Of a stretch of DNA of 7,320 nucleotides, positions 1-3,476 are shown one piece after another. The position numbers and the translations under genes were made by a program. The DNA comes from an uncultured Lachnospiraceae bacterium. Its GTDB lineage: Bacteria; Bacillota_A; Clostridia; Lachnospirales; Lachnospiraceae. Numbering within the stretch: the first letter of the stretch is position 1; every line of letters starts with the position of its first letter. The stretch covers positions 1 through 7,320 of the forward strand of contig CACZQE010000231.1 of the NCBI GenBank assembly GCA_902783205.1. Reading direction: 5' to 3'. The notes below the pieces were generated by a model, which had not been told where the DNA came from, did no database searches, and saw nothing but the letters and a program-made list of their open reading frames with translations.

Positions 1-644
1 CCGGCATCAAGGAGCTCGCTGCCTATGCAGGAAGAAAGAAAACTCTTTCCCACTCCGGTCTTGCCCCTGATCAGGAGATTGGAAGCTTTTCCCTGTCTGA
101 CATCCGCAATGAAACGGTCGGCTGTGTCAAGCACACGGCGGATATTATCCCGGGGTGACTCTTTGTCACCGGGTCCGGGAACGGAAGCGTAGAGGTCGGT
201 CCTGAAATTTCTGAAATTGGCATCCTTTCTGATATCCGCAAGATTGGACTGGGCTATGAGCAGATCCCGGATCCGTTTTTTAAAGCACCGGCACTTGTCG
301 TTTTCCACATAACCGGTGTCCCTGCAGACAGGGCAGACATAAATGGGATCCAGATAGTCTGCCGGGTAGCCGTTTCTGACCAGTAGGTCAGTCCTTTCCA
401 TGGCAAGATCCCTGATCTCTTCTCTGCAGGCAAGTTCCTGGGCTGCAGCCGCTGCACCTTCCAGAAAAAGAAGTTTCCTGGTCCGCTCAACGGTACGGGA
501 AGCAATCTTTTCGTCTATCTGCCGAATGGCAGGCACTGCCTGATATACCTCATCCCGCCTCTCTTCTTCTATATACCGGTTTTCTCTCCGTATCCGGTCA
601 TACTCATCCATGATCCGGAGATGCTGGCGGTTGGTCAGCTTCAT
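1..644 (-). CDS. dnaC: DnaC/DnaI-like replicative helicase loader ATPase (3' part cut by window edge)
   Basis: The first 214 codons are present and the frame is still open at the left edge. Visible elements, in order: a helical, charged N-terminal part; a cysteine cluster YVCPVCRDTGYV followed by CRCF (C104, C107, C118, C120), which looks like a zinc-binding knuckle; and the Walker A loop GKTGVGKS at residues 194-201, preceded by the hydrophobic strand NLLI. This order, a Cys-rich N-terminal domain then AAA+ ATPase, matches Gram-positive DnaI and clostridial DnaC-like proteins, which load the replicative helicase onto DNA at the origin and at restart sites. Walker B and the sensor motifs lie outside the window. 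The start is well supported: AGGAGG at 650-655 sits 5 nt upstream of the ATG, and the start overlaps the dnaD stop in an ATGA (641-644), implying translational coupling. The family call is firm. Whether the product acts at oriC, in restart or in both is inferred from the family and from the dnaD neighbour. Confidence 0.93.
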   Translation of the reverse strand, partial: MKLTNRQHLRIMDEYDRIRRENRYIEEERRDEVYQAVPAIRQIDEKIASRTVERTRKLLFLEGAAAAAQELACREEIRDLAMERTDLLVRNGYPADYLDPIYVCPVCRDTGYVENDKCRCFKKRIRDLLIAQSNLADIRKDANFRNFRTDLYASVPGPGDKESPRDNIRRVLDTADRFIADVRQGKASNLLIRGKTGVGKSFLSSCIGSELLDA

Positions 645-1666
645 GGCTTCCTCCTGTCTCTGTCAAGCAGTCTGGCTTCCAGTGCCCCGTAATCATAGGA
701 TCTCTGATCAAAGGCTGTCTGGGAGCCGCCTGAGGCAGGAACTTTTTTTGTCTCCTGCACACGGGCGCCGGCATGAGCCTCATCCAGAGCCTCCACGTCC
801 TTGAGGGTTCTGACGCCCTTGGCTTTCCAGACATCCAGAATCTTGGAAGCATAGGGGAAGCTGGCCTGGTGGATGGACAGGATGGTCTTGCTGCAGGCTG
901 CAGTGATCAGGTCCGTATCAAATCCCATCCGGTTCCAGCGTTCAATGTATTCCATCTCGGAAGCACCCAGGCTGCGTCCTGTCAGGCCGAAAGCCCTGAT
1001 GACCGGATATACATTTTTCTCATAAAGGCGGCTGTGTTCCCTGGCTTCCGGCACGGTACGGATGCCCTGCCGGAACCACTCGATCGCTACCCGCTCCACA
1101 TAGCGCATACTGGTGTGCCCTTTGCTGACGCAGTATTCGATCAGGTGCTCCATCAGTTCGCTGGAGAAGGCCAGCTGGCTGCTGATATAACAGAGGGAAT
1201 TCAGCTCGGAAACGGAAAATGTTTTCCCGAAATATGTCTCCGCCATAAAAATGACTCTGCTCAGATCCCGGTTTTCGGAAGCGGCTTCGATCTCCAGAGG
1301 AGTCAGTGTTCTTTTAAAAGGAATACTGTCCCGGGCCGGCCTCCCGTCGGCGGCTTGTAGAGCGCTTTGGGTTCCGTCATCTTCGGGCGCCGCTTCTGCC
1401 TCAGGTCCGGTCTCTTTCCTCTCAGAGAGGAGACCTTCCTTCTGCCAGTAGGAGAGGGCCCGCAGTATATCCTTCCGGGTCAGCTCCAGGCGGTCTGCCA
1501 GTTCCTCGGCTGTCGCGGGAATCCCGCTGTTCTCCAGCCGGAGGATCATGAGATATACCTTGATATACTCCCCGTCTGTCCTGTTCAGATACCGATCTAT
1601 AAAATCATTGGACAGTACGGTAATATCAGGATGAAGATTGTGTGCTGTCATAATTTCCTGGTTCAT
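641..1666 (-). CDS. dnaD: DnaD-domain replication initiation/primosome protein
   Basis: This is a 341-residue protein. Residues about 11-82 look like a winged-helix domain (ITVLSNDFIDRYL at the start, then DILRALSYWQKEGLL as a probable recognition helix). An acidic, Ala/Pro-rich linker follows at about 83-115. Two DnaB_2/DnaD-type helical modules then follow, each ending in the family's YxxxIxxxW-like signature: Y189 to W197 (YVERVAIEW) and Y272 to W280 (YASKILDVW). The tail is polar. Family proteins bind and remodel DNA and recruit the helicase loader during initiation and restart. Two C-terminal modules in one chain resemble the domain content of Bacillus DnaB more than the single-module DnaD. 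The gene overlaps the following dnaC-like gene by 4 bp. The chosen ATG has AAGGA 9 nt upstream (1676-1680). An internal ATG at codon 6 also has an AGGA-like site, so the true start may be 5 codons later. A promoter and a DnaA-box cluster lie upstream. Confidence 0.92.
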   Translation of the reverse strand: MNQEIMTAHNLHPDITVLSNDFIDRYLNRTDGEYIKVYLMILRLENSGIPATAEELADRLELTRKDILRALSYWQKEGLLSERKETGPEAEAAPEDDGTQSALQAADGRPARDSIPFKRTLTPLEIEAASENRDLSRVIFMAETYFGKTFSVSELNSLCYISSQLAFSSELMEHLIEYCVSKGHTSMRYVERVAIEWFRQGIRTVPEAREHSRLYEKNVYPVIRAFGLTGRSLGASEMEYIERWNRMGFDTDLITAACSKTILSIHQASFPYASKILDVWKAKGVRTLKDVEALDEAHAGARVQETKKVPASGGSQTAFDQRSYDYGALEARLLDRDRRKP

Positions 1667-1727: not shown

Positions 1728-1756
1728 AGTATAGCATAAGAGATTCAAAAAATATA
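1728..1756 (-). promoter_or_regulatory. Predicted sigma-A type promoter for dnaD-dnaC (extended -10)
   Basis: Read on the minus strand, TGC-TATACT forms an extended -10 (hexamer at 1728-1733). A weak -35, TATATT, lies at 1751-1756 with a 17-bp spacer. The predicted start point is near 1721, giving a leader of about 55 nt that contains the 1695-1714 hairpin. The nearest DnaA box begins about 20 bp upstream of the -35, a position more compatible with activation or looping than with simple occlusion. The call rests on motif match and spacing only. Confidence 0.6.
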
Positions 1757-1776: not shown

Positions 1777-2022
1777 TGTGGATAAAACCGTGGATAAAAC
1801 CCGGGGAAAACGGTGGAAGAAATAAGGCAGATTAATTGTGGATAAAGTGGATAAAGATGTGGATGGACAGAAAAAACAGGATGTTGTGGAGGGATTACCG
1901 AAAAGAGGGCGGGAGACGGAAGATATAGAAGGGGGTCATTGGGGATAAAATGTGGATAAAATGGGGAAAAGCGTAAAAAAACCACTTTATCCGACATTTC
2001 TTACGGAAAAAAATGTGGATAA
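1777..2022 (-). promoter_or_regulatory. DnaA-box cluster (four perfect, several near-perfect, all co-oriented)
   Basis: The 9-mer TTATCCACA, the consensus DnaA box, occurs perfectly on the minus strand at 1777-1785, 1837-1845, 1951-1959 and 2014-2022. One-mismatch copies lie at 1789-1797 (last base G), 1846-1854 (last base T) and 1940-1948 (TTATCCCCA). A two-mismatch copy lies at 1858-1866. All point the same way, toward dnaD. Perfect boxes are paired with imperfect ones at start-to-start distances of 12, 9 and 11 bp, and box 2014-2022 is followed by TTTTCCACT at 2023-2031. This density is far beyond chance in 250 bp and is the kind of array DnaA-ATP binds cooperatively. It sits upstream of the dnaD-dnaC promoter, so DnaA control of the helicase-loader operon is the simplest reading. 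An origin or a titration site is the alternative. dnaA and dnaN are not in the window, which weighs mildly against canonical oriC. The box at 2014 is also part of the murC terminator stem. Confidence 0.85.
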
Positions 2023-2027
2023 AGTGG
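1975..2027 (-). terminator. Rho-independent terminator of murC
   Basis: On the minus strand the arms CCACTTTATCC (2017-2027) and GGATAAAGTGG (1982-1992) pair perfectly over 11 bp. After a single bulged base (1993), six more pairs form (ACATTT / AAATGT, 2011-2016 and 1994-1999) around an 11-nt loop. Seven consecutive T residues (plus-strand A at 1975-1981) follow the stem immediately. The stem begins about 22 nt after the murC stop codon. The TTATCCACA box at 2014-2022 lies within the first arm. This suggests that murC transcription ends before dnaD and that dnaD relies on its own promoter. Confidence 0.88.
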
Positions 2028-2048
2028 AAAACTTTTACAGAGCAGGAG

Positions 2049-3464
2049 CTATTCGTTTTCTGCCTGCTCTTTGCTGCCGGAGGCTGCTTTTTCAAGAAGC
2101 TCTTCACCAAGTTCTACGATATCACCTGCGCCGACAGTCAGGACAAGATCCTTTCCTCCGATTCGGGACAGGAGATAGTCCTCGATCTCTTCAAAAGTGT
2201 GGAAATAACTTGTATCCGTCCCTGCCTGACTGATTATTTCAGCCAGATCTCCTGAAGAGACCAGCCCGGTATCAGGCTCCCTGGCGGCAAAGATATCGGC
2301 CAGGACCACATGGTCCGCCGAGGATAAGGCCCGGGCAAACTGGGGAAGAAAGGCTCTGGTCCGGGTATAGGTGTGAGGCTGGAAAACGACCCAGAGATCA
2401 TCGTGACTGATCTCGGAAGCCGCACGCAGGGTTGCCTCGATCTCGGTGGGATGATGGGCATAGTCATCGATGACTGTCACATCCCCGATTTTTCCCTTAA
2501 ATTCAAATCTGCGATGCGTTCCTCCAAAGGAAAGCAGGCCGCTGCTGATCATATCAAGCGGCAGGCCCATGGCCCTGGTACAGGCAATGGCAGCCAGAGA
2601 ATTGGTCACGTTGTGGATTCCCTTGACCTTCAGCCGGATCGTGCCGGCCTTTTGGCCATGTTCGATCAGGCTGTAGGAAACATTGCCCTTCTCGTCAAAG
2701 ACAACATCCTCTGCCGAGTAATCATTATCCTTTGACAGTCCGAAGGTAATGTGGGCTGCCTGTACACCTTCCAGCACGGCGTCGGTATGGGGCATGTCAC
2801 CGTTGATGATGACAAGGCCTGACGGATCAGTCTGAAATGCAAATGTACGGAAGGAATTGATGATATCATCCAGATCCTTAAAGAAGTCCATATGATCCTC
2901 TTCCACATTTAATATGATGGAGTAGAAGGGATAGAGGGAAAGGAAACTGTTGGTATACTCACAGGCCTCCGTCAGGAAGACATCCGACCTGCCGATCCGG
3001 ATATTGCCGCCAATCCTGTCCAGAATACCGCCGATGCTGACAGTGGGATCCATATCGCACTGGAGCAGGATGTGGGTGAGCATGGATGTAGTCGTAGTCT
3101 TGCCGTGCGTACCGGCAACTGCGATGGTTCTGAGGAAATTGTCCATAATCTGACCCAGAAGGTCCGCCCTGGAGAGGATGGGAATCCCGTGCTTTAAGGT
3201 TTCGGCAAACTCCGGATTGTCCTCATGGATGGCAGCGGAGTAAACAACCAGGTCAATTCCGTCATGGATATTTTCGGCTTTCTGCCCGATAAACACCTGA
3301 GCCCCCTGATCCTCAAGCTGCCCGGTAAGAGGGGAAGCCTTCATATCGGAACCCGATACGGTAAAACCTCTTTCAATCAGGATCCTGGCAAGGCCGCTCA
3401 TGCTGATGCCTCCGATTCCTATAAAATGTACATGGACCGGATGTCTGAAATCTATTTTATACAT
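2049..3464 (-). CDS. murC: UDP-N-acetylmuramate--L-alanine ligase MurC
   Basis: This cytoplasmic Mur ligase uses ATP to join L-alanine to UDP-MurNAc, the first step of the peptidoglycan stem peptide. Taking the ATG at 3464 the protein has 471 residues, normal for MurC. Visible motifs: the N-terminal nucleotide-binding FIGIGGISMSGLA (14-26); the ATP loop GTHGKTTT (118-125) with catalytic K122; EACEY (166-170); NVEEDHMD (186-193); the FGGTHRRFEFKG stretch; and the C-terminal DDYAHHPTEI (333-342), whose HH is characteristic of MurC rather than MurD/E/F, followed by QPHTYTRT. A GTG three codons upstream would extend the frame, but it lies inside the GAGGTG ribosome binding site, so it is unlikely to be the start. 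The gene has its own promoter (3533-3561) and a terminator, so it is probably monocistronic. It is divergent from glgC. Confidence 0.97.
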   Translation of the reverse strand: MYKIDFRHPVHVHFIGIGGISMSGLARILIERGFTVSGSDMKASPLTGQLEDQGAQVFIGQKAENIHDGIDLVVYSAAIHEDNPEFAETLKHGIPILSRADLLGQIMDNFLRTIAVAGTHGKTTTTSMLTHILLQCDMDPTVSIGGILDRIGGNIRIGRSDVFLTEACEYTNSFLSLYPFYSIILNVEEDHMDFFKDLDDIINSFRTFAFQTDPSGLVIINGDMPHTDAVLEGVQAAHITFGLSKDNDYSAEDVVFDEKGNVSYSLIEHGQKAGTIRLKVKGIHNVTNSLAAIACTRAMGLPLDMISSGLLSFGGTHRRFEFKGKIGDVTVIDDYAHHPTEIEATLRAASEISHDDLWVVFQPHTYTRTRAFLPQFARALSSADHVVLADIFAAREPDTGLVSSGDLAEIISQAGTDTSYFHTFEEIEDYLLSRIGGKDLVLTVGAGDIVELGEELLEKAASGSKEQAENE

Positions 3465-3470
3465 ATAAAA

Positions 3471-3476
3471 CACCTC
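3471..3476 (-). promoter_or_regulatory. Ribosome binding site that fixes the murC start
   Basis: GAGGTG on the minus strand lies 6 nt before the ATG at 3464-3462. Its GTG (3473-3471) is in frame with murC and could be mistaken for an upstream start. No other Shine-Dalgarno-like sequence sits before it, so the ATG is preferred. Confidence 0.8.

Follow-up and report, generated by a model that had tools for sequence, protein, structure and literature searches.

We identify a conserved row of DnaA boxes upstream of the helicase-loader genes dnaD-dnaC in an uncultured Lachnospiraceae bacterium and its relatives. We propose, with a probability of about two in three (0.68), that this array acts in cis as a regulatory platform, where DnaA would assemble head to tail to control dnaD-dnaC transcription. 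The proposal draws on features read directly from the DNA: the position and orientation of the boxes, their tandem geometry at 9 and 12 bp, their conservation, their avoidance of the core promoter, and the persistence of the array beside dnaD. From these we infer both DnaA binding at the array in the cell and activation of the dnaD promoter. Because a row of DnaA boxes is conserved before helicase-loader genes, the proteins that act downstream of DnaA are probably supplied under its control, which would tie initiator and loader into a single circuit in Clostridia that are abundant in the gut.

A co-oriented DnaA-box array in the murC-dnaD gap

The window, by which we mean the whole stretch of 7,320 nucleotides analyzed, contains the following features.

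2049-3473, minus strand: murC, the gene upstream of the array (TIGR01082, 465.6 bits)
1974-2027, minus strand: murC intrinsic terminator, a hairpin (2027-1982) and T run (1981-1975) with DnaA-box letters in the 5' arm; the RNA fold of 2040-1972 has -28.7 kcal/mol, z -9.4
2014-2031, minus strand: box group 1, TTTTCCACT (two mismatches) abutting a perfect TTATCCACA
1940-1959, minus strand: box group 2, a perfect TTATCCACA and TTATCCCCA, 11 bp apart
1837-1866, minus strand: box group 3, CCATCCACA (two mismatches), TTATCCACT and a perfect TTATCCACA, 12 and 9 bp apart
1777-1797, minus strand: box group 4, TTATCCACG and a perfect TTATCCACA, 12 bp apart
1728-1738, minus strand: extended -10 promoter element TATGCTATACT, the top-scoring site in the gap, with a predicted start site at about 1721
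641-1666, minus strand: dnaD, encoding a DnaD-domain protein (TIGR01446, PF07261)
3-644, minus strand: dnaC-like helicase-loader gene, encoding a DnaC-like AAA+ protein and truncated at the window end (top-scoring model NF005304, 193.9 bits against a cut-off of 215)

The gap between murC and dnaD spans 382 bp and holds seven DnaA boxes of the form TTATCCACA, all on the minus strand. Four are perfect (2014-2022, 1951-1959, 1837-1845 and 1777-1785) and three carry one mismatch (1940-1948, TTATCCCCA; 1846-1854, TTATCCACT; 1789-1797, TTATCCACG); two-mismatch copies belonging to the same series lie at 2023-2031, 1962-1970 and 1858-1866. Across 2000 dinucleotide shuffles of the gap, neither box count, four perfect or seven with up to one mismatch, was ever reached, the shuffle means being 0.0055 and 0.16. 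Over both strands of the whole window, 10 matches with up to one mismatch compare with 1.69 expected, and none of 200 shuffles reached 10. The preliminary description had reported four perfect and at least three one-mismatch boxes on one strand, in pairs 9-12 bp apart. Scan and shuffles confirm these counts, and the start-to-start spacings measure 9 bp (2023/2014 and 1846/1837), 11 bp (1951/1940) and 12 bp (1789/1777).

The array is conserved in relatives and stays by dnaD

Conservation of the boxes in the murC-dnaD gaps of relatives had been named as a check on a regulatory role. Our survey comprised 140 loci: 39 DnaD loci from genome contigs, 100 further regions, and the window. To obtain the 100 regions, we searched 146 genomes, of which 144 gave a match and 10 were already among the 39, and hand-picked from the remaining genomes, mostly for clear matches; the sample is not random and its loci are related to one another. 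In 122 of the 140 loci murC precedes dnaD, with a gap of at least 80 bp in 114 of these, the window included. The boxes prove to be conserved: sense boxes with up to one mismatch number at least one in 112 of the 114 gaps, at least two in 106 and at least three in 92, and one locus (L017) carries an array of 8. Two gaps of at least 80 bp (L168 and L179) hold no sense box, and none of the 8 murC-dnaD pairs with gaps below 80 bp holds a box.

Orientation is strongly biased. Across the 122 murC-adjacent loci (41,085 bp), we counted 503 sense against 56 antisense boxes with up to one mismatch, and 281 against 10 perfect boxes, with 7 and 1 matches for a reversed-box control. Permuted-box controls (n=40) gave a mean of 18.4, a median of 10 and a maximum of 213; the maximum belongs to TTTCCACAA, which is one letter off the box shifted by one base and therefore partly counts the boxes themselves.

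The array also adjoins dnaD when murC lies 3.0 kb away (L014), 4.2 kb away (L009) or inverted (L011). Among the 18 loci without murC upstream, it is present in L006, where the contig ends, and in L011; the other 16 show no array. One carrier outside the close group of the window (G149) encodes a DnaD that shares 74% identity with the Defluviitalea phaphyphila protein; the array thus extends beyond a single genus and, going by that name, beyond a single family. Genome-wide, abutting double boxes (up to one mismatch) occur 120 times in 40 picked genomes, and dnaD accounts for 63 of these, spread over 31 genomes; a control pattern occurs 2 times in the same set. The complete relative G041 contains 74 perfect boxes against 19 matches for the control.

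Spacing sets these arrays apart from dnaA loci. Among 384 cases of neighboring sense boxes in dnaD arrays, 154 stand 9 bp apart and 57 stand 12 bp apart, where random placement predicts about 1.4% each. Counted over both strands, neighbors in dnaD arrays share a strand in 291 cases and face opposite ways in 58. At 45 dnaA loci, by comparison, the favored same-strand spacings are 11, 22, 14 and 12 bp, 9 bp accounts for only 5 of 172, and opposite neighbors are common (132). In 20 loci near the window, we also tried a fixed layout of eight slots (0, 9, 73, 170, 182, 191, 239, 251), which is fully occupied in nine and filled to at most six by random placement. We do not accept it as proof for the window, because the layout was derived from some of the same loci and the five slots filled there (six with two mismatches) were matched by random placement.

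Taken together, the array has the features expected of a DnaA-regulated promoter: its boxes exceed chance, are conserved and co-oriented with dnaD, and lie upstream of the predicted promoter. The earlier suggestion that DnaA would control dnaD-dnaC thus agrees with what the sequences contain.

Box position favors activation over occlusion

The preliminary description placed the array about 20 bp upstream of a predicted -35. By eye we find no good -35 there; an extended -10 stands out instead, and the -10 hexamer of TATGCTATACT (1738-1728) begins 43 bp downstream of the last box. Across the surveyed loci, 106 yielded an extended -10, at a median of 52.5 bp before dnaD, and in 90 of 105 loci no more than 110 bp separate it from the closest upstream sense box. 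Of 535 boxes, only 2 reach into the core promoter. The earlier preference for activation over occlusion, should the array be regulatory, holds up here: boxes kept off the core promoter fit activation or upstream assembly better, although this is not proof. DnaA at the array would be about twice as likely to activate the dnaD promoter as to repress it.

The -35 match averages 3.1 of 6 positions against 2.5 by local chance. As this is somewhat better than local chance, the promoter may depend on an activator, but we do not take its poor -35 to prove activation. We also draw nothing from helical phasing between the -10 and its nearest box, since some signal appeared at all periods tried (9.5 to 11.5) among loci that share ancestry. 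A generic promoter and terminator scan missed both the extended -10 and the long-stem terminator. Separately, the predicted dnaD 5' leader contains an inverted repeat at 1695-1714 (CATGCGGA-TCAG-TCCGCATG), which was not seen in a few relatives compared by eye.

We propose that DnaA would coat the tandem, co-oriented boxes upstream of the dnaD promoter and, bound about 50-120 bp upstream of the start site, would activate an extended -10 promoter with a mostly poor -35. In B. subtilis, DnaD reportedly lowers the binding of DnaA to DNA, so DnaD supply raised in this way would close a negative feedback loop on DnaA. DnaD is named among the proteins that affect DNA binding by DnaA in B. subtilis, in the portion of the source considered (PMC4447404), which makes such feedback plausible. 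A site with at least seven boxes would also keep some DnaA from oriC. Within the accessible portion of the open-licence PMC literature, we found no report that DnaA controls dnaD or any Lachnospiraceae gene and no experiment on DnaA at the dnaD array. The array offers a compact promoter for testing feedback of DnaA level on initiation.

The murC-side boxes overlap a terminator

Beyond the preliminary description, we find that the murC-side box pair forms the 5' arm of the murC intrinsic terminator. At group 1, a stable hairpin followed by a T run lies just past the murC stop. Of 114 loci, 64 show a hairpin and T run no farther than 160 nt from the murC stop, with the 5' arm overlapping a box in 43, and the first sense box begins 0-3 nt past the stop in 65 of 110 loci tallied. 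No earlier description of this overlap was found in literature that was searched for the point only indirectly.

These observations could mean that the boxes are mainly letters of the murC terminator, kept for termination. We regard this as very unlikely, because pairing of the stem needs neither TTATCCACA nor a second abutting copy, the promoter-side groups lie outside the hairpin, and the same test detects no such hairpin in 50 of the 114 loci. Conservation of group 1 may nevertheless be, in part, terminator conservation. Where murC is not followed by dnaD, five of 16 murC loci (L233, L235, L236, L237 and L238) still have two perfect sense boxes in the 700 bp downstream. The pair on the murC side may therefore predate dnaD, be independent of it or not serve it, which speaks against a reading centered on dnaD alone.

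An origin at the array is disfavored in relatives

A box density this high resembles that of an origin, and the preliminary description had offered a functional or remnant replication origin as an alternative. The dnaA loci of relatives argue against this. DnaA scored above the cut-off in 31 of the first 39 genomes, and 30 dnaA loci from this set carry boxes of their own, 5 to 19 per fetched stretch. The location of dnaA and of the GC-skew switch, proposed earlier as a check, could be read in G041 (3,515,670 bp), where dnaA lies at 25 and dnaD at 3,322,523, 193 kb apart. In 20 sampled stretches, skew has a positive sign between position 1 and 1.22 Mb and a negative sign from 1.55 Mb onward; it flips only at dnaA and between 1.22 and 1.55 Mb. 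The values flanking dnaD are -0.106 and -0.112, with no change of sign at the array. A strict DnaA-trio pattern is absent from the window gap, and its longest run in the 114 gaps is 3, against up to 7 around dnaA. Skew and dnaA-linked boxes lead us to reject the array as an origin in the relatives, and an origin, working or remnant, now seems extremely improbable.

DnaA titration is a stronger candidate, though still an unlikely one: the array would time initiation by keeping DnaA from oriC and would lie beside dnaD by historical accident. Dense boxes do occur here outside oriC, the dnaD array of G041 being its densest perfect-box cluster apart from oriC (four within 198 bp). In B. subtilis, deletion of six DnaA-box clusters reportedly leads to early initiation (PMC5295017), and the boxes retained past murC in 5 of 16 loci without dnaD would also suit titration. 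Such a role would favor a fixed or origin-near site, yet the distance between dnaA and dnaD ranges from about 44 kb (G136) to 1.26 Mb (G139) in the 11 relatives' genomes with both on one contig, so that no relative distance to oriC is conserved. All 11 have a sense box, 10 at least two and five at least three; the array is weak in some, with two sense boxes in five genomes and one in G098. Titration needs neither a fixed orientation (503 vs 56) nor 9/12-bp spacing, and the array remains next to dnaD where murC is displaced. We therefore favor transcriptional control of dnaD-dnaC by DnaA.

Related arrays at other genes

An array similar to that of dnaD also precedes hpf, a ribosome hibernation factor gene, in relatives, a finding that goes beyond the preliminary description. 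Among 33 further cluster loci (L186-L217 and L225), hpf lies near the boxes in 17, mostly directly downstream and in the same sense. These hpf arrays (L186, L188-L194, L196, L197, L199, L201-L203, L210, L211 and L215) show spacings of 9, 12, 42 and 53/54 bp. Seven loci (L200, L204, L206, L208, L209, L213 and L216) share the 9-and-53-bp layout, although no hpf turned up in their vicinity; six of these adjoin an NlpC/P60 gene. Clusters also lie between nusG and nrdD (G014, G009) or a dUTPase gene (G041) at L198, L212 and L225. L205 is dnaA itself, and L217 is another murC-dnaD gap.

The array at hpf may point to a connection of initiation with ribosome hibernation. A wider reading, which we offer as speculation and consider rather doubtful, is that Lachnospirales share a replication-linked DnaA regulon with one geometry (co-oriented, 9 and 12 bp), comprising dnaD-dnaC and hpf and, in some, clusters at nrdD or dUTPase genes. 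The terminator-arm pair at the murC stop would then be a DnaA-sensitive switch through which replication initiation is coupled to the transcription of cell-wall genes, the supply of helicase loader and the capacity for translation.

Comparison with known systems

The Clostridia bipartite oriC, in the portion of its description considered (PMC7561715), uses the same box sequence; unlike the dnaD array, it brackets dnaA and has a DnaA-trio and an unwinding region. The dnaA regions of our relatives favor 11-12 bp spacings, often with opposite orientation. B. subtilis DnaA-box clusters (PMC5295017) and E. coli datA (PMC5010248) resemble the array as dense DnaA-binding boxes outside oriC, binding at the present array being predicted, and their reported role is to hold or inactivate DnaA. 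datA and DARS reportedly keep their relative distance to oriC (PMC5010248), which the present array does not.

DnaA-regulated promoters of B. subtilis are alike in having non-origin DnaA-box clusters at gene promoters. The direct targets named in the considered portion of a review include no dnaD, dnaB-dnaI or helicase-loader gene (PMC8203912); here, the target would be dnaD-dnaC, with co-oriented 9/12-bp tandems and one pair inside the terminator of the upstream gene. The nearest case appears to be Caulobacter crescentus, whose DnaA regulon, according to the same portion of that review, includes the dnaB helicase and dnaQ (PMC8203912). There too, predicted DnaA boxes precede a gene of the helicase-loading step; the two cases differ in phylum, and the target in Caulobacter is the helicase, whereas here it would be the loader.
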